Shown here: positions 1 to 9,043 of the stretch, in pieces
How the letters are laid out: each line of letters begins with the position of its first letter
Position numbering within the stretch: position 1 is the first letter of the stretch
From: Adhaeribacter sp.
Lineage (GTDB): Bacteria; Bacteroidota; Bacteroidia; Cytophagales; Hymenobacteraceae
Reading direction: 5' to 3'
Length of the DNA: 10,118 bases
Assembly (NCBI GenBank): GCA_028288395.1
Contig: JAQBNV010000610.1
Span: 1 to 10,118, forward strand
Made by a program: the position numbers and the translations under genes
Notes under the pieces: model-generated
What the model was told of the DNA's origin: nothing
The model's database searches: none
What the model saw: only the letters and a program-made list of their open reading frames with translations

Positions 1-1323
1 GTAGACGGGGTGCGGGCCATCCGCTCGCCGGGCAGCACCCTAAAACCGCTTTTGTACGCCGCTGCTTTCGACCGGGGACTGGTTACGCCGAAAACGGTAA
101 TCAGCGACGTCCCCATCGATTATGCCGGCTATCGCCCGGAAAATTATTACGGTACTTACAGCGGCAATATTACCATCGAACAGGCCTTGGCTACCTCGCT
201 TAATATTCCGGCGGTAAAAATATTGGATCAGTTGGGCGTGCCCGCCTTTGTGCAGAAACTACAGCAGGCCGAATTTTCGCAGGTAAAGAAAACCGGCAGT
301 CAACTGGGTTTGTCGCTTATTCTGGGTGGCTGCGATGTTACGCTCGAAGAACTGACTACGTTGTTTTCGGCTTTCGCGAATGGCGGCCAATATTCTTCCC
401 TGCGGTGGCAGCAGCAGGATACAGTGGCCGTACAGAAAAGATTAATTTCGCCAGCAGCGGCCTACATGTTAAACCAAATATTAACCCAGTTGCAGCGCCC
501 CGATTTACCGCACAACGCCCAAAACAGCCAGCACATGCCCCAAATAGCCTGGAAAACCGGCACCTCTTACGGCCGCCGCGATGCCTGGAGCATTGGCTAC
601 AATAAAAAACATACCGTGGGCGTGTGGGTGGGTAATTTTTCCGGCGAGGGCGTGCCGGAACTCAACGGCACCGATTCGGCCACGCCGCTGCTCTTCTCTA
701 TTTTTAATACCATCGATTACAACAGTCCCGAAAGCTGGTTCCGGATGCCCCGCGACCTGCGGTACCGCCGGGTTTGTGCGGCCAGTGGTTTGCCCCTAAA
801 TAGCTTTTGTCAGGATGAAATAACCGATACGTTTTTGCCCGGCATTTCGCCGGTAATTAAATGCGAACACCTGAAACGGGTGCCGGTTTCGCGGGATGAA
901 AAATGTGCTTACTGCACCAGTTGCCTGCCCGACGGGGATTACCAGCAGAAATGGTATCCGAACCACGCGCCCGAGTTGCTGGCTTTCTTGGAGGAGGAAC
1001 ATATTCCTTACGAGAAAATTCCGGCCCATAACCCTGCCTGCAGCCGCATTTTTCAGGACTTTGCCCCGGTTATTACGTCGCCTACGGCCGATACCGAATA
1101 TTTGCTCGAACGGGCCGAAAATCAGAAACTGATGCTGCATAGCAACGCCCACAACGAAGTAAAGCAGGTTTGCTGGTACATCAACGACCAGTTTTTGCAG
1201 GCCACGCCAGCCAATACAAATTTATTCTTTACGCCTACCAAAGCCGGCAAATATAAAATATCCTGCACCGACGACCAGGGCCGCAACAGCAACAGCTTTA
1301 TCCAGGTTAAATTTATTGATTAA
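1..1323 (+). CDS. pbpC: Penicillin-binding protein 1C, C-terminal part (5' end outside window)
   Basis: This is a class A penicillin-binding protein that cross-links, and in its missing N-terminal part polymerises, peptidoglycan on the outer face of the inner membrane. The frame is open from base 1, so the gene starts before the window; the GTG at 10 is internal. About 440 codons remain of a family usually near 750-800 residues, so the membrane anchor and glycosyltransferase domain lie upstream. The transpeptidase motifs are in order: SxxK in 'GSTLKP' (Ser codon 34-36, Lys 43-45), SxN as 'SLN' (196-204) and KTG in 'WKTGTSYG' (553-561). A cysteine-containing linker follows (about 775-920), then a C-terminal beta-domain of the PBP1C type (about 1050-1320), which separates PbpC from PBP1A/1B. 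The TAA stop is at 1321-1323. No alpha2-macroglobulin gene, its frequent partner, is seen downstream. Confidence 0.92.
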   Translation, partial: VDGVRAIRSPGSTLKPLLYAAAFDRGLVTPKTVISDVPIDYAGYRPENYYGTYSGNITIEQALATSLNIPAVKILDQLGVPAFVQKLQQAEFSQVKKTGSQLGLSLILGGCDVTLEELTTLFSAFANGGQYSSLRWQQQDTVAVQKRLISPAAAYMLNQILTQLQRPDLPHNAQNSQHMPQIAWKTGTSYGRRDAWSIGYNKKHTVGVWVGNFSGEGVPELNGTDSATPLLFSIFNTIDYNSPESWFRMPRDLRYRRVCAASGLPLNSFCQDEITDTFLPGISPVIKCEHLKRVPVSRDEKCAYCTSCLPDGDYQQKWYPNHAPELLAFLEEEHIPYEKIPAHNPACSRIFQDFAPVITSPTADTEYLLERAENQKLMLHSNAHNEVKQVCWYINDQFLQATPANTNLFFTPTKAGKYKISCTDDQGRNSNSFIQVKFID

Positions 1324-3130: not shown

Positions 3131-4009
3131 ATGGAAGTTCAGGAAGTTGAACGCCTCATTAAAATCAGTAAAGAAAAACCTTTACTGCCCGAAACCTTTG
3201 TACCGTGGAATATTCCGCCTTTGCCCGACGACGAATTTTTACCTGAGAAATTAAATTCGCTGGCGGGCCTGGCCTTTTACGACACCCTCACGCCCGACCA
3301 GAAAAGGGAGTTGGGCCGGCACGAAGCGGTGCAGGTAATGTATTCGTATGGCTGGAGCGAAGCATTATTCTGCCTGTTTATGAACCGCTACATCCTGACC
3401 CTGCAGCCCGATAATGTAGAATATCGGTTTTTGCTACGCGAATTAATTGAAGAGTTTCGGCACCAGGAAATGTTTGCCCAGGCCATTGCGCACCTGAATG
3501 GCAAGCCGATTAAGCCCACCCGCCTGCATAATATTATGGGCCAGTTTACAGTAAAGTTTATGCCGGCCGATGCCGTGTTTATGAGTTGCCTGGCCGTAGA
3601 AATGATGGCCGATTTGTACGGAAACCACCTGCGCAAAGGAGCGAAGGTTTACGTTGTGCTGAAGAAAGTAGCGGAGCTGCATAATATTGAAGAGGGGCGT
3701 CACATCCATTTCACCAAAGCTTTTTTGAAGCGGTACACCCATAATGCCAGTTTTATTAGAAGAAGTTTTTACAGTTACCTGGTATTGTTCAATGTGTTTT
3801 TTATGCGCACGCTCTACGTAAAAAAAGAAATATTTGCGCGGATAGGACTCGAAAACCCGGATGTTGTTTTTAAAATGGCCAGCAAAAATTACCAGTACAA
3901 GTTTGGCCAGGAGTGTTTAAAAACCATTGTGCAGTTTGTAGACGAATGGGGCGGTTTTAACAAAGCCACCCGCTGGGCCTGGCGGTTACTTTTAAAAGCA
4001 AACGTATGA
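3131..4009 (+). CDS. AurF-like ferritin-fold diiron oxygenase
   Basis: The 292-residue product looks like a member of the AurF family of ferritin-like diiron oxygenases. Characterised members (AurF, CmlI) oxidise aryl amines to nitro groups. All seven metal ligands expected from AurF can be placed: E77 (YGWSEALF), E108 and H111 (IEEFRH), E157 (LAVEMMAD), H184, E188 and H191 (LHNIEEGRH). The spacings E108-H111, E157-H184, H184-E188 and E188-H191 equal those I recall for AurF (E136/H139, E196/H223, H223/E227, E227/H230). No signal peptide is present; a hydrophobic patch at about 212-229 probably belongs to a core helix. It is the first gene of the operon, and its TGA overlaps the next ATG (ATGA, 4006-4009). 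The substrate is unknown. The neighbours suggest a lipid or acyl intermediate, so N-oxygenation is not implied, and C-H or C-C oxidation is possible. Confidence 0.85.
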   Translation: MEVQEVERLIKISKEKPLLPETFVPWNIPPLPDDEFLPEKLNSLAGLAFYDTLTPDQKRELGRHEAVQVMYSYGWSEALFCLFMNRYILTLQPDNVEYRFLLRELIEEFRHQEMFAQAIAHLNGKPIKPTRLHNIMGQFTVKFMPADAVFMSCLAVEMMADLYGNHLRKGAKVYVVLKKVAELHNIEEGRHIHFTKAFLKRYTHNASFIRRSFYSYLVLFNVFFMRTLYVKKEIFARIGLENPDVVFKMASKNYQYKFGQECLKTIVQFVDEWGGFNKATRWAWRLLLKANV

Positions 4010-5004
4010 GCCGCGTAAAAATAAGTCATATTGCCGCTTATACAGCAGGTTCCCGGCGGGTAAGCAGCCACGAAATAGAAGCCCGGATAAATCACAAACA
4101 AGCCTTACTGGCGCCCGGGGTACTGGAAAGATTATTTGGGGTTAAAAACCGATATTTTGCCGAGGCCGGTACGCAATGCTCGGATTTGGCTGCCGGGGCG
4201 GCCCGCAAAATTCTGGCCCAGGTAGATCCCCAAACGATTGATTGTTTAATATTTGCCGCGGCCAGCAGCGACCTGATTGAGCCCGCCACCGCCAATATTG
4301 TGCAAGCCAAACTCGGGCTGACGTGCCCGGTTTTTGATGTAAAAAATGCCTGCAACAGTTTTATGTCGGCGATACAGGTGGCTGCCAGTTTTATTAAAAG
4401 CGGCGAGTACCAGCGCGTACTCATTACCAACGGCGAAATCCTGCAGAATGCCATAACCTTTAATATTACCGACGAAGTAGATCTGCTAAAGCGATTGGCC
4501 AGTTTTACCCTCGGCGATGCCGGCACGGCCGCTTTACTTCAAAGGAGCCAGGACGAATCAGGCATTCTTTACCACGATATCCGCTCGATGGGTAAATACT
4601 GGGAATTATGCGTGATTCCCGGCGGCGGCTCGATGTACCCCCAGGATTGCAGCAAGCACTTTTTTGAAGGTAAAACCTCGGAACTACGGGAGGTATTTGC
4701 CCGCGAAAGAGGCGATCTGATAGAGAAATGCCTTCAAAAAACCGGCTTTACCCGCAACGATATCGATCATTATTTTATTCACCAGGTTTCAAAAAACTCC
4801 TGCGAAGCCCTGGCCCGGGAGATAGATATTCCGCTGGCAAAAGTGCATTGTATTGTAGAAGAATACGGCAATACCGCCGCGGCGTCTATCCCGCTGGGCA
4901 TCTCGCTGGCGGTGCAGGCCGGGAAATTAAAAAAAGGCCAGAAAATAATGATTATTGGTTTGGCGGCCGGAATAAGTATGTCGGTTAGTTTAATTATCTG
5001 GTAA
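4006..5004 (+). CDS. KAS III / OleA-like thiolase-fold condensing enzyme
   Basis: The 332-residue cytosolic protein belongs to the 3-oxoacyl-ACP synthase III (FabH) superfamily, which forms C-C bonds by Claisen condensation from an acyl thioester held on a cysteine. The triad is visible: C116 (DVKNACNSF), H259 (YFIHQVSK) and N289 (EEYGNTAAASIP), with the typical end GLAAGISMSVSLIIW. The segment SDLIEPATANIVQAKLG carries E92 where OleA has its catalytic Glu117 ('YLEPSTA'), by my recollection of that sequence. FabH has no acid there. OleA condenses two fatty acyl-CoAs head to head to a 2-alkyl-3-keto acid, so E92 and the OleC/OleD-like neighbours favour an OleA-type role over housekeeping FabH. 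It overlaps the upstream gene by 4 bases and the downstream gene by 1 base (TAATG, 5002-5006). An ordinary secondary-metabolite KAS III remains possible. Confidence 0.85.
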   Translation: MSRVKISHIAAYTAGSRRVSSHEIEARINHKQALLAPGVLERLFGVKNRYFAEAGTQCSDLAAGAARKILAQVDPQTIDCLIFAAASSDLIEPATANIVQAKLGLTCPVFDVKNACNSFMSAIQVAASFIKSGEYQRVLITNGEILQNAITFNITDEVDLLKRLASFTLGDAGTAALLQRSQDESGILYHDIRSMGKYWELCVIPGGGSMYPQDCSKHFFEGKTSELREVFARERGDLIEKCLQKTGFTRNDIDHYFIHQVSKNSCEALAREIDIPLAKVHCIVEEYGNTAAASIPLGISLAVQAGKLKKGQKIMIIGLAAGISMSVSLIIW

Positions 5005-6542
5005 TGCTGTACCATTCTCCTATTCTGGAACCGCTCATCCGCCTGGCCCAATCGGACGAACAAACACCTATTTTGTTTAACGGCGGCGAACCCCTTACCC
5101 CACGCGAACTATTAACCGGCAGCCTGCAACTGGGGCAGCAATTGCTGAACCTGGGCATGCAAAAAGACGACACCGTTATTATTGCCGTGGCCCCCGGCGC
5201 GGATTTTATTAAAGTGATGTATGCCACCATGATGATCCGGTGTAAAGCAGCTATAATCGATCCCGAGATGGGGCGAGCCTTATACGCAGCGAAGCTGGCC
5301 CAGCTAAAACCTAAATGGGCTTTTGTAGATACCCGCCTGCTGCTCTTGCAGGAACATCCGCTGCTGCGGTACGCCTATTTTAAGCTGGCCCGGAAGCCGG
5401 TTTACTTCCCGCGGGTAAAAAATTTAAATATTATTGCTTCCGGGCCCCGGCTGCCTTTGCTGCAAAAGTTTACTTCCCTGCAAAAATTGGTTAAAGCACC
5501 CAAGCAGCCGGTTAATTTACTTAAAGATCCGGGTCCTTACGATTACCTGATTACTTATACTTCGGGCACGTTGCAGGAACCCAAAGGGGTGTTACATTCT
5601 TTTGCCTCCCTGAGCCAGAGCATTCGGTTATTAAGCGCGTTGGTGCAAGGCCAGCCCGGGGACCGGCTGGCAACTTACCTCCCGCATTTTGTATTGCTGG
5701 GCATTACCGCGCAAGTACCCGTATTTGTTTACAACCCTAGTCTAAGTGTGCCGCAGAAGCTTGCTTTTTTAAAGAAAAACAAAATCAGCATCCTGTTTGG
5801 TCCGCCCAGCGATTTCCTGCCCTTGGTGCAATATTGCGAGCAGCAGCAAAGCCAATTGCCGGCTTCTTTAAAACACCTGCTACTGGGGTCGGCACCGGTG
5901 CATAAAAGTTTCTTAATAAGATTGGTAGCGGTTCTTCCGGAGCAGGTGCGTTTAACCATTACTTATGGCATGACCGAGCATTTACTCGTAAGCACTGCCG
6001 ATGGGCGCGAAAAAATAAATTATATTGGTCCCGGCGACCTGGTGGGCAAACCAGTAGTCGGGGTAGAAGTAAAAATAGCCGCCGACGGCGAACTGCTGGT
6101 GCGCTCCGCCCAACTGTTTTCCCGCTATTACCACCTTTCGGACCGCCCCGAATTTCATGCTACCGGTGATTTGGCCCGGCTGGACGCCGATGGTAATATT
6201 TTGCTGCTGGGCCGCAAAAAGGAAATGATCATCCGCAGCAATACGAATATTTACCCGGCACTTTACGAAGATACCATCAAGAAAATACCGGGCGTGGAAG
6301 AAGCGGCGATGGTGGGTATTTATTCTCCCGAAAAAGAAGACGAAGAAGTTTACCTGGCTGTGGAAGCCAGCCGCCCCCTGACGGCCAAATATATTCTGGA
6401 TAAAATATCGTACGGAGCGTTACAAATCGAAAAGAATGCGCTGCCCGACGAAGTGATTTTTATGCAGATGCCGCGTAAAGGCCGGCAGCACAAAATAGAC
6501 CGCGCCAAAATAGCCCAAATTATTAAAGATCGTAAAAATTGA
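5004..6542 (+). CDS. AMP-forming acyl ligase, OleC (beta-lactone synthetase)-like
   Basis: The 512-residue protein belongs to the ANL superfamily of adenylating enzymes. Core motifs in order: phosphate-binding loop YTSGTLQEPKGV (185-196), ITYGMTE (319-325), TGD (387-389), hinge LLGRKKEMI (401-409) followed by NIYP, and a probable catalytic lysine K497 in RQHKIDR. The N-terminal stretch at about 55-90, ending IIDPEMG, recalls the 'DPGMG' segment of OleC. OleC adenylates a beta-hydroxy acid and closes it to a beta-lactone instead of making a CoA ester. The P-loop is unusual: the common TSGTTGxPKG has become TSGTLQEPKG, losing the usual Thr-Gly pair. The position between OleA- and OleD-like genes supports an OleC-type role, but fatty-acyl-CoA or acyl-ACP ligase activity cannot be excluded. 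The start ATG overlaps the previous stop by one base; the end overlaps the next TTG start by four. Confidence 0.85.
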   Translation: MLYHSPILEPLIRLAQSDEQTPILFNGGEPLTPRELLTGSLQLGQQLLNLGMQKDDTVIIAVAPGADFIKVMYATMMIRCKAAIIDPEMGRALYAAKLAQLKPKWAFVDTRLLLLQEHPLLRYAYFKLARKPVYFPRVKNLNIIASGPRLPLLQKFTSLQKLVKAPKQPVNLLKDPGPYDYLITYTSGTLQEPKGVLHSFASLSQSIRLLSALVQGQPGDRLATYLPHFVLLGITAQVPVFVYNPSLSVPQKLAFLKKNKISILFGPPSDFLPLVQYCEQQQSQLPASLKHLLLGSAPVHKSFLIRLVAVLPEQVRLTITYGMTEHLLVSTADGREKINYIGPGDLVGKPVVGVEVKIAADGELLVRSAQLFSRYYHLSDRPEFHATGDLARLDADGNILLLGRKKEMIIRSNTNIYPALYEDTIKKIPGVEEAAMVGIYSPEKEDEEVYLAVEASRPLTAKYILDKISYGALQIEKNALPDEVIFMQMPRKGRQHKIDRAKIAQIIKDRKN

Positions 6543-7561
6543 AAATCTTAATCACCGGCGCGAATGGCTTTGTAGGAGCGGCGTTGTGCCGGTACTTTCA
6601 CCAACAAGGGCACACAATTCTGGCGCTCGGGCGGCAATCAAAGCCTCATCCCAACCTGGCGGCTATTGCAGATTATTTACCAGCTGATATAACCCAAACA
6701 CTGAAGCCATTCCGGGCCGATGTTTGCATTCATGCGGCCGCTTTGGCTTCCGATACCGCTGCTTATAAAGATTTATACCATAACAATGTAAAAGGCACCT
6801 GCCAGGTACTCCGGGCAGCCCGGCACTGCGCCTATTTTGTCCAGGTTTCGTCGTCCTCGGTTTACCAATTTGGCAAGGCCCCGGCTAAAGAAAGCGATGC
6901 TACGCTAAATGCCAACCTCAGCCCTTACGGCAGAACCAAATTAATCGCTGAGCAGCTGGTCCTGGAAAATATACCTACCAGTCAGAAAAGAATAATTTTG
7001 CGCCCCCGGGCTATTTACGGCATCGGCGACCGGGTTTTATTGCCGCGTTTACTGCACCTGGTAAAAGGAAACATTATTTTTTGTCCGGTTCCGGCTACAG
7101 TACAAACTTCGCTTACCTACATCGGAAATATTGGCTATGCCATAGACTTGTTTTTGCAGCAGATCAAGCCGCCCAGGATGCAAATTTATAATATTGCGGA
7201 TGCGCCGGCTTATAATTTAAGAAAAAGCATTTTACAATTGCTGACAGCCATATACCCCCCGGATGCAGCCTATTGCCAGGTTCCGATATTTTTATTAAAA
7301 TTGCTGGGGGGCATCAATAAAATGGTGCCTTTTAGCGCCAGATTAAATCCGTTTGTACTACATTCCCTTACCCAAAATGCTTTGCTGGATACCGGTACCA
7401 GCAAAGCCGGTTTAGGGTATGAACCCCAGTATAATTTTGAAGACACGTATCCCCAAATTGCGGCGTGGCTGCAGCAGCTAGGCGGGCCCGATTGGTATTT
7501 AAAAAACCTGACGCAGGCCCCTTGGGAATTAGGCCAGAAATTTGCAAATATACCTTTATGA
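6539..7561 (+). CDS. NAD(P)-dependent epimerase/dehydrogenase, OleD-like, TTG start
   Basis: The 340-residue protein is an extended short-chain dehydrogenase. The dinucleotide-binding motif GANGFVG is at 7-13, a Ser run at 104-107 supplies the likely catalytic serine, YxxxK is Y130-K134 (PYGRTKLIAEQ), and LRPRAIYGIGD follows at 154-164. This arrangement resembles OleD and 3-beta-hydroxysteroid dehydrogenase-like proteins ('LRPR-IWGPGD'). OleD reduces 2-alkyl-3-keto acids to the 3-hydroxy acids that OleC uses. The start is TTG at 6539, overlapping the ligase's TGA as TTGA. It is chosen because MKILITGANG begins the Rossmann strand as usual and no ATG fits. About 25 residues after a typical end (GGPDWYLKNLTQAPWELGQK) form a C-terminal tail of unknown role. 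A sugar-nucleotide epimerase is less likely, as no sugar genes are nearby. Confidence 0.87.
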   Translation: MKILITGANGFVGAALCRYFHQQGHTILALGRQSKPHPNLAAIADYLPADITQTLKPFRADVCIHAAALASDTAAYKDLYHNNVKGTCQVLRAARHCAYFVQVSSSSVYQFGKAPAKESDATLNANLSPYGRTKLIAEQLVLENIPTSQKRIILRPRAIYGIGDRVLLPRLLHLVKGNIIFCPVPATVQTSLTYIGNIGYAIDLFLQQIKPPRMQIYNIADAPAYNLRKSILQLLTAIYPPDAAYCQVPIFLLKLLGGINKMVPFSARLNPFVLHSLTQNALLDTGTSKAGLGYEPQYNFEDTYPQIAAWLQQLGGPDWYLKNLTQAPWELGQKFANIPL

Positions 7562-8181
7562 AAATAACCTGCCATTTAATAATAATCTTCTTTACCTGGC
7601 TACCGGTTTATAAAATATCGGCCCAGGATAATTGGGAATTGAAAAAAAACGAAAACGGCATTACAGTTTATTCCCGCGGCATTACGAACGAAAAGCTTAA
7701 AGAAATAAGGGTGGTTTGCGAGTTGCCGGGCACAACGGCCCAATTAAAAGAAATTCTGCAAAATGTGGGCGGGCACGCCCGCTGGGTTTACCTCACCAAA
7801 AAAACCAACCTGGTAAAAAAGGTAGATGACCAGACGCTTATTTATTACAGTGCCTCCGATATGCCCTGGCCGGTAACCGACCGCGACCTGGTGGTAGAGC
7901 TAACGATTACGGAAGCCCCTGATTCCGGAAATTTATCTATCCGGGCCAAAAGCATTTCGGACTACCTGCCGCCTAAAAAAGATTATGTCAGGGTTCCTTA
8001 TTCGCTGGCTACCTGGGAAGTAGTGCCGCTACCGAATAATAAATTAAAAGTCGATTATACATTCCGGGTAAATCCGGGCGGCGATATACCCAGCTGGATA
8101 GTAAATGCGGCGGCTACAACCGGTCCTTATAATACTTTTGTAAAATTAAGAGATTTATTAGCCGCCAAGCAGGCCCGGTAA
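7558..8181 (+). CDS. Exported START-domain lipid-binding protein
   Basis: The start is ATG at 7558, overlapping the previous stop as ATGA (7558-7561), although the frame is open further upstream. This start gives 207 residues with a signal peptide (MKITCHLIIIFFTWLPVYKI, then SAQ) and likely cleavage after SA, so the protein is probably periplasmic. There is no lipobox. The rest matches a START-type domain, a helix-grip fold with a hydrophobic cavity for one lipid: ARWVY at 75-79, the family hallmark MPWPVTDRDLV at 102-112 and NPGGDIPSWIVN at 172-183. Its translational coupling to the biosynthetic genes suggests that it binds or carries their hydrophobic product, but related START proteins also occur alone in Bacteroidota with no known ligand. 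The TAA stop is at 8179-8181, and no clear terminator follows. Confidence 0.85.
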   Translation: MKITCHLIIIFFTWLPVYKISAQDNWELKKNENGITVYSRGITNEKLKEIRVVCELPGTTAQLKEILQNVGGHARWVYLTKKTNLVKKVDDQTLIYYSASDMPWPVTDRDLVVELTITEAPDSGNLSIRAKSISDYLPPKKDYVRVPYSLATWEVVPLPNNKLKVDYTFRVNPGGDIPSWIVNAAATTGPYNTFVKLRDLLAAKQAR

Positions 8182-8233: not shown

Positions 8234-9043
8234 ATGCCCGAACTGCCCGAAGTAGAAACTTACCGCCGTTATTTTGAAGAAACAGCCTTGGGCCAGACTG
8301 TAGCCCACCTGGAAGTAGAAGATCAGCGACAACTTACCACCGATTTTGATACCCTGCAGCAAGCGTTAAAAGGCGCACAGTTTACCGGGGCACATCGTAT
8401 TGGCAAACACTTTTTGATAAACCTCAGTACCAGCAAAACCCTGGTTTTACATTTTGGCATGACCGGCGATTTGGCCTATTACCGCGATGCCGAAGACACG
8501 CCCCGCTTTGCCCGCATTGTTTTTCATTTCCAGAACGGCTTTCGGTTGGCCTTTATCGATTCGCGCAAGTTCGGCCGCGTAGGGTTGGCCGAAAGTATAG
8601 AAGCGTACCGCCAGGAAAAGAGACTTGGTCCCGATGCGCTGGATATAAGCCTGCTGCAATTGCAGGCTAGCCTGGGAAAACGCAAAGCACCTGTCAAATC
8701 TTTGTTGCTGGATCAGAAAATTCTGGCTGGTATAGGCAACTGGATTGCCGATGAAGTCTTGTTTCAGGCACAAATATTTCCGGCTAAACTGGCTAACCAA
8801 CTTTCGTCGGCCGAATTTAAGCGGTTACATGCTGCCATTCTGTACGTCTTAAAAACCGCCATTGAGGAGGAAGCCAATTACGGCAACTTCCCCAAAACCT
8901 TCCTCATCCATGCCCGGGGCTGGGACGATAGCGCCTTAAAACCCGCCGAACGGCAGGTTTGTCCCCAGCACCGCACGCCACTGAACATAATCAAAGTAGG
9001 CGGCCGCACTACCTACTTTTGTCTGGTTTGCCAGCCGCAATAA
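8234..9043 (+). CDS. mutM: Formamidopyrimidine-DNA glycosylase (Fpg/MutM)
   Basis: This 269-residue base-excision repair enzyme removes oxidised purines such as 8-oxoguanine and nicks the abasic site. The N-terminus MPELPEVETY holds the catalytic Pro2 and Glu3 once the initiator Met is removed, which fixes the start at 8234. Other family landmarks are K58 (RIGKHFLI), HFGMTG at 73-78, R111 in FIDSRKFG, and the helix-two-turn-helix KILAGIGNWIADEVL with N169. The zinc finger is C243xxH246 ... C263xxC266, with R258 in its loop (VGGRTT). His replaces the usual second Cys, but the finger should still bind zinc. It lies 52 bases after the START gene, with no overlap, so it may be a separate unit or a read-through tail of the operon. 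Its housekeeping function seems unrelated to the lipid genes. Confidence 0.97.
   Translation: MPELPEVETYRRYFEETALGQTVAHLEVEDQRQLTTDFDTLQQALKGAQFTGAHRIGKHFLINLSTSKTLVLHFGMTGDLAYYRDAEDTPRFARIVFHFQNGFRLAFIDSRKFGRVGLAESIEAYRQEKRLGPDALDISLLQLQASLGKRKAPVKSLLLDQKILAGIGNWIADEVLFQAQIFPAKLANQLSSAEFKRLHAAILYVLKTAIEEEANYGNFPKTFLIHARGWDDSALKPAERQVCPQHRTPLNIIKVGGRTTYFCLVCQPQ

Follow-up and report, generated by a model that had tools for sequence, protein, structure and literature searches.

The 10,118-nucleotide stretch of Adhaeribacter sp. DNA analyzed here (GenBank contig JAQBNV010000610.1, our contig C555, from an assembly rated 78.6% complete; hereafter, the window) contains an operon of five intact plus-strand genes without internal stops (positions 3131 to 8181), which encode an AurF-type diiron oxygenase, relatives of the enzymes OleA, OleC, and OleD, and a START-domain protein. 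It represents a real, conserved operon type, in which an OleACD core (i.e., the cassette) is combined with an exchangeable tailoring enzyme. The products of Ole-type enzymes are either olefins of the membrane or beta-lactone natural products, which are reactive. We consider it probable, if only narrowly, that the window holds a lipid operon of a distinct OleACD clade for head-to-head condensation, reduction, ring closure by the ligase (likely to a beta-lactone), and oxidation by the AurF protein, without OleB. We infer that OleA would join two acyl-CoAs head to head to form a 2-alkyl-3-keto acid, and that its reduction by OleD would give the 2-alkyl-3-hydroxy acid, whose carboxylate the OleC-like ligase would then adenylate, most likely closing a beta-lactone. 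The AurF-type enzyme may hydroxylate or otherwise oxidize an acyl chain of either the precursor or the product. Without OleB, the product would not be decarboxylated to an olefin, and in Adhaeribacter its binding or transport is probably the task of a START protein in the periplasm.

Consecutive genes overlap by 4, 1, 4, and 4 bases (5' to 3'; junctions ATGA, TAATG, TTGA, and ATGA), and these junction sequences agree with the overlaps given in an earlier note made from the window alone (i.e., the original prediction). The identical five genes, in identical order and followed by fpg, are found in Adhaeribacter aerolatus and A. rhizoryzae (L008 and L009), in which the OleD-like gene starts with ATG instead of the TTG of the window. 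Since, apart from the window, the AurF gene is present in these two Adhaeribacter genomes and missing from five searched congeners, the operon is patchy even inside the genus. A scan anchored on AurF (80 of 102 relatives kept; the FabH-like gene of the Runella locus L081 excluded from the counts; L062 and L078 stop at contig ends) located OleA nearby in 18 loci, the ligase in 16, and OleA, ligase, and reductase together in 14. Besides Adhaeribacter, metagenome-assembled genomes (MAGs) of Saprospiraceae, Chitinophagales, and Schleiferiaceae carry this four-enzyme set, with order or strand sometimes altered; the arrangement goes beyond chance, and the neighborhood is conserved, a point that the original prediction had proposed to check. 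The order AurF-OleA-OleC-OleD on a single strand is kept in 11 of the 14 complete loci (in L066, a large gene precedes the reductase). L075 and L077 have AurF and the OleA-OleC-OleD block on different strands, and in L084 the reductase alone is inverted. The hosts of L075 and L077 are unsure because these loci are filed under Candidatus Paceibacterota and uncultured bacterium.

The condensing enzyme has the active-site residues expected of an OleA. Residue E92 aligns with the glutamate of the LEPSTA motif in Xanthomonas OleA, which we take to be Glu117 of the literature (the numbering was derived from chain offsets), where FabH chains have Phe. Glu117-Pro is conserved in 19 of 19 OleA proteins (the window and 18 cassette loci), and all of these keep the catalytic Cys, His, and Asn residues (C116, H259, and N289 in the window); Glu-Pro is also present in the OleA proteins of L237 and Streptomyces L088. 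In a tree of 38 OleA rows (including six paralogs; paralog loci without a usable frame were omitted), the window and 16 loci form one clade (support, 100/98), L075 and L077 group with the L088 protein (91/81), and the FabH rows, together with the FabH-like row of L081, split off at 95/95. A FabH identity was rejected on account of Glu117 and the split from the FabH rows. The L081 OleA candidate, which lacks Glu117 and has a long branch, was removed from the OleA counts. Profile and structure rankings lean toward FabH: the FabH-subfamily model NF006829 scores slightly above NF006720 on the window OleA (184 versus 178 bits, both below cutoff), and in a sequence comparison with solved structures, two that bear the name 3-oxoacyl-ACP synthase 3 (ACP, acyl carrier protein) rank first, before Xanthomonas OleA. 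According to passages of PMC7064751, the OleA glutamate is a general base, and only two of the OleA proteins aligned there lack Glu117-Pro. The PROSITE pattern EPxx[AS]x(14,18)DxxNACL, as given in part of PMC7158056, is failed by the cassette OleAs at the last residue (NACN, not NACL). Three lipstatin-type LstA rows likewise fail it, and the pattern was hence not taken as defining (the label lipstatin-type for L092, L093, and L096 and the names LstA, LstC, and LstD are ours and follow from gene content, such names being absent from the records).

The reductase and the ligase also group with Ole-type enzymes. In the OleD tree (32 rows, with eight epimerases; paralog loci without a usable frame omitted), 15 cassette rows and L088 form a clade (98/95). 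An OleD/LstD group (99/97) also includes the reductase of L084, and the two groups, together with the L081 reductase, stand apart from the epimerase rows (100/99). The best NCBIfam model for the window reductase is NF042422, at 99.6 bits versus a cutoff of 580, below which the canonical OleD of L091 (357) and LstD (223) also fall; an OleD model match at 1e-60 was found in only 1 of 395 genomes of the phylum. The sequence comparisons leave the proposed condensation and reduction steps well supported. A 45-row ligase tree, which replaced an earlier one with few outgroups (LstC_L096 and par_L140 were taken out), places 17 cassette rows and Streptomyces L088 in one clade (100/99) that is sister to 14 OleC/LstC rows (100/100). 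Jointly, they are separated from 13 other adenylate-forming enzymes (100/99; several outgroup rows are long). The lactone formation step is moderately supported by these comparisons, and a beta-lactone product is plausible. Trees and conserved residues thus sustain the kinship to OleA, OleC, and OleD that had been claimed from the window: the three enzymes do not fall with the FabH, ordinary ligase, or epimerase rows sampled.

For the oxygenase, seven putative metal ligands (E77, E108, H111, E157, H184, E188, and H191) were matched by motif to the AurF ligands, whose numbering comes partly from passages of PMC12101540. All seven are shared by 39 of 40 Bacteroidota rows; only a decayed copy in Cesiribacter (L067) departs from them. 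A sequence search for an AurF relative of solved structure returned chance-level matches only. In a fold search with the AlphaFold model (predicted local distance difference test score, 88.9), the first nine matches were CmlI and AurF structures (three at E 0.001 or better), at sequence identities of 10 to 14%. On its predicted fold and seven metal ligands, the protein is a member of the AurF N-oxygenase family (PF11583), sharing the fold and the pattern of three His and four carboxylate ligands with the arylamine N-oxygenases AurF and CmlI. The residue before ExxH differs, being Glu in the window protein, Gln in CylC homologs, and Asp in AurF, according to passages of PMC12101540. EExxH is present in the window and in all 40 Bacteroidota AurF rows aligned, and a CylC-type dimetal halogenase was ruled out on the basis of this motif, which stands in place of the QExxH given in the same passages. 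If the enzyme acts on aliphatic C-H bonds, an N-oxygenase-type scaffold would be performing lipid C-H oxidation. Separately, AurF-family genes on actinobacterial plasmids adjoin DUF4873 genes (L198:3959-5625 and L200:3430-8539), and L200 additionally has FAD- and SDR-type oxidoreductase genes (flavin adenine dinucleotide and short-chain dehydrogenase/reductase, respectively).

Because the first scan was anchored on AurF, a second search was anchored on the ligase: a profile of 15 cassette ligases was run against 398 genomes of one family, that of the Chitinophagales MAG G793, from which L065 comes. It matched in 27 genomes, of which 8 were known already (G793 to G796, G798, G800, G843, and G972). 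The other 19 were new, with G946 (L247 and L250) counted once and with L064/L230 and L066/L229 each treated as a single contig. OleA lies beside the ligase in 14 of the new genomes, the ligase occurs without OleA in 4, and 1 locus (L236) is cut by a contig end. In each of these 14 OleA-ligase loci, a candidate oxygenase gene adjoins the cassette (i.e., AurF in 10, a Cupin_8/JmjC protein in L231, L232, and L240, and a fatty-acid hydroxylase in L242), in keeping with the original prediction of an oxidizing enzyme linked to the Ole genes. The Cupin_8 and hydroxylase genes adjoin the cassette on its own strand; L063 has both an AurF and a fatty-acid hydroxylase gene. The single fatty-acid hydroxylase could be there by chance, and the three Cupin_8 genes hardly so: their proteins are 54 to 63% alike, stand beside three AurF-less cassettes, and have no match in the other 100 loci searched. 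In a joint OleA and OleC tree (32 rows; L248 and L250 left out), the Cupin_8 loci L231 and L232 group with the AurF locus L066 (100/100), and L240 lies elsewhere. Oxygenase type needs five changes on this tree, the same number as with shuffled labels; therefore, it is independent of the tree and was exchanged more than once. Linkage and replacement support the proposed oxidation step, and the exchange offers a direct test of AurF-type action on an aliphatic substrate. Rather tentatively, we extend this to a modular Bacteroidota family of oxidized head-to-head lipids (probably beta-lactones), in which one OleACD core would have repeatedly exchanged its tailoring enzyme (AurF-type diiron, JmjC/Cupin_8, or membrane fatty-acid hydroxylase; P450 in Actinobacteria).

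A search that used the L091 OleB-like protein as the query found no OleB match in the window's own assembly (78.6% complete) or, at 1e-10, in 103 cassette and AurF loci, as expected from the original description of an operon without OleB. Two Adhaeribacter genomes (G312 and G317) gave only partial matches of 110 to 124 residues (5e-12 to 5e-10). The query comes from Bacteroidota genome G118, where OleB-, OleC-, and OleD-like genes stand together; no well-matching OleA was found beside them, and the L091 ligase has the same sequence as a protein that carries the name of Aegicerativicinus sediminis. In Streptomyces sp. BHT-5-2 p1 (L094:5044-9618), consecutive genes that lack annotation in the record consulted encode OleA, an alpha/beta hydrolase (by eye, similar to OleB), OleC, and OleD.

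The START protein is a recruited accessory, not a core member, and the original suggestion that it belongs to the system in general did not hold. Among the 103 loci, its gene adjoins the cassette only in the window, L008, L009, and L067; L081 has one that is more distant. In L067 (positions 10001 to 11788), residues 1 to 238 of AurF run directly into residues 180 to 331 of OleD, followed by START. This copy is decayed, with OleA and OleC gone and one ligand His of AurF replaced by Tyr; its retained START suggests that START was also part of the operon in the Cesiribacter lineage. START relatives (49 to 54% identical) are present in five of five operon-less Adhaeribacter genomes, none of them beside fpg. 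The N-terminus, MKITCHLIIIFFTWLPVYKISAQ, is signal-peptide-like by eye, and the closest solved structure by sequence is 3qsz (1.4e-28); lipid binding or carriage by START is weakly suggested.

Several observations weigh against the proposed beta-lactone pathway. The best of the 89 NCBIfam models matched by the window ligase, NF006754, gives it 152 bits versus a cutoff of 478, far below the lipstatin-type LstC (560) and canonical OleC (657), which pass. Moreover, the cassette ligases are sister to the OleC/LstC clade, not inside it; because of this position and the low score, we call the protein OleC-like rather than OleC. Both points would suit a mycolate-like lipid, in which a 2-alkyl-3-hydroxy fatty acid formed by OleA and OleD is activated by the ligase (as acyl-AMP or acyl-CoA) for envelope-lipid transfer, with no beta-lactone; the diiron enzyme would hydroxylate a chain and START would carry the lipid. 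The signal-peptide-like start of the START protein also fits an envelope lipid. We regard this alternative as somewhat unlikely, since the ligase groups with OleC/LstC and not with the 13 other adenylate-forming enzymes, NF006754 remains its best model, and no acyltransferase appears among the recurrent neighbor families, only some of which were Pfam scanned.

Also on this side, AurF lacks a nearby Ole homolog in 58 of the 80 AurF loci, mostly Mucilaginibacter (e.g., L010, L018, and L023; for 12 of the 58 the sequence ends within 2 kb downstream, and for 36 it extends 4 kb or more to each side), and a cassette-type ligase was not found at 1e-15 in eight of eight such genomes searched. Therefore, AurF can function without OleACD. 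Its substrate may then be an ordinary fatty acid, which is compatible with a ligase whose step comes first, supplying OleA as a fatty acyl-CoA/ACP synthetase, with AurF oxidizing a free or thioester-bound fatty acid and a ketone or hydroxy acid as the end product; the position of the ligase with OleC/LstC makes this improbable. The 58 orphan loci, together with the 4 of 14 new OleA-ligase loci without AurF, could also mean that AurF is a chance neighbor or serves another pathway and that OleACD alone form the pathway. We think this very improbable: AurF of the window kind is uncommon, occurring in 3 of 296 genomes of the phylum (its own genome counted), yet adjacent in 10 of the 14 ligase-found loci, the reading frames overlap in the window, and each of the four AurF-less loci has another oxygenase-family gene adjoining the cassette. 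AurF distances correlate with OleA, OleC, and OleD distances (r = 0.684, 0.733, and 0.735; n = 19, 17, and 16), and none of 5,000 permutations was equally high, but these correlations partly reflect the shared ancestry of the genomes. With the base of the AurF tree open, orphan AurF may derive from the cassette or cassette AurF from orphans. Mucilaginibacter neighbors were fruitless as a guide to AurF function, the commonest neighbor family (31 of the 58 loci, on the opposite strand) resembling biotin synthase by eye.

Four further points on the same side concern the other components. Cassette-type ligases occur without OleA or OleD nearby in L233, L234, L246, and L249 (the L249 match is partial and weak). 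Xanthomonas OleA pairs with LstA (87/82, long branches) and does not join the cassette directly, the exact branching order being unsure. Full-length OleB-like hydrolases are encoded elsewhere in three of nine cassette genomes (1e-39 to 1e-49), with weaker matches in five and none in one; the three strong matches are not beside ole genes. Finally, the Cupin_8 proteins carry HxA (HNA or HCA) where JMJD5 has HxD (HQD), and because of this replacement they may not be ordinary oxygenases, their activity being uncertain. The site is possibly halogenase-like or inactive; in the SyrB2 site, chloride takes the place of Asp (passages of PMC12101540), and by analogy the HxA form could be a halogenating variant.

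Clusters with oleACD and without OleB have been described, as passages of PMC7064751 state. The same passages report, in Actinoplanes atraurantiacus, the order OleA-glycosyltransferase-OleC-P450-OleD without OleB, with a hydroxylated, glycosylated beta-lactone as the proposed product; the OleA was active in a p-nitrophenyl ester screen and gave no Claisen product in a limited assay. Streptomyces viridifaciens pKVP2 (L088) has the same layout. Like the window operon, both combine OleA, OleC, and OleD with one oxygenase and no OleB, and the cassette clades of the ligase and reductase trees take in the L088 proteins. Unlike it, both are actinobacterial and have a P450 and a glycosyltransferase instead of the diiron enzyme (the Actinoplanes cluster was compared by its published layout). 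The original remark that no described pathway with this gene set was known must be qualified, as the published Actinoplanes cluster follows the same idea with a different oxygenase. No publication on AurF with OleACD was found, judged by titles and abstract openings, mostly outside the subscription literature. The lipstatin-type clusters also have OleA, OleC, and OleD homologs without OleB, and lipstatin is a beta-lactone (passages of PMC7064751). They differ in having a second thiolase-like gene, a nonribosomal peptide synthetase, and a formyltransferase, in lacking an annotated diiron oxygenase, and in lying sister to the cassette in the trees of OleC and OleD. The canonical OleABCD olefin pathway (represented by the OleB/OleC/OleD-like genes of L091 and by Xanthomonas OleA, 3row) shares the enzyme types and Glu117 with the window but has OleB, and the window ligase and reductase lie outside its clade. 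A survey using the strict OleA pattern found no ole clusters in Bacteroidetes, according to part of PMC7158056; the cassette OleAs escape that pattern because their motif ends in NACN. The operon is a lead to as yet unexplored lipids of named Adhaeribacter strains.

Features of the window and Cupin_8/JmjC genes of related loci
Feature	Position	Strand	Remarks
Penicillin-binding protein 1C gene, 3' part	1-1323		Upstream of operon
AurF/CmlI-type ferritin-like diiron oxygenase	3131..4009	+	292 aa; Pfam PF11583 AurF 137 bits, over cutoff
OleA-type thiolase (FabH fold)	4006..5004	+	332 aa; ACP_syn_III_C 84 bits, ACP_syn_III 59 bits, over cutoffs
OleC-like adenylate-forming enzyme	5004..6542	+	512 aa; AMP-binding 121 bits, over cutoff
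OleD-like 2-alkyl-3-oxoalkanoate reductase (extended SDR)	6539..7561	+	340 aa; Epimerase 103 bits, over cutoff
START-domain protein, signal-peptide-like N-terminus	7558..8181	+	207 aa; ATG start; PF01852 48.7 bits, over cutoff
fpg	8234-9043		Downstream of operon
Cupin_8/JmjC protein	L231:143-1162	-	Beside AurF-less cassette
Cupin_8/JmjC protein	L232:3108-4181	-	Beside AurF-less cassette
Cupin_8/JmjC protein	L240:4314-5339	-	Beside AurF-less cassette

No RNA family matched the window above threshold, and a promoter and terminator scan (15 and 12 sites versus 8.9 and 9.3 expected) was not used as evidence. Upstream of AurF, a radical S-adenosylmethionine family recurs in L062, L074, and L085, and a family without a Pfam match recurs in L062, L070, L074, and L085 (one representative of each was scanned). 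The Runella locus (L081:4580-11918) has OleD-like, AurF, metallo-beta-lactamase (MBL)-fold, F390-synthetase-like (by eye), FabH-like, and GH3 genes, and a Paracoccus locus (L197:4015-7980) has an operon of thiolase-like, OleD-like, MBL-fold, and F390-synthetase-related genes. These two loci perhaps represent another lipid pathway built from the same parts.

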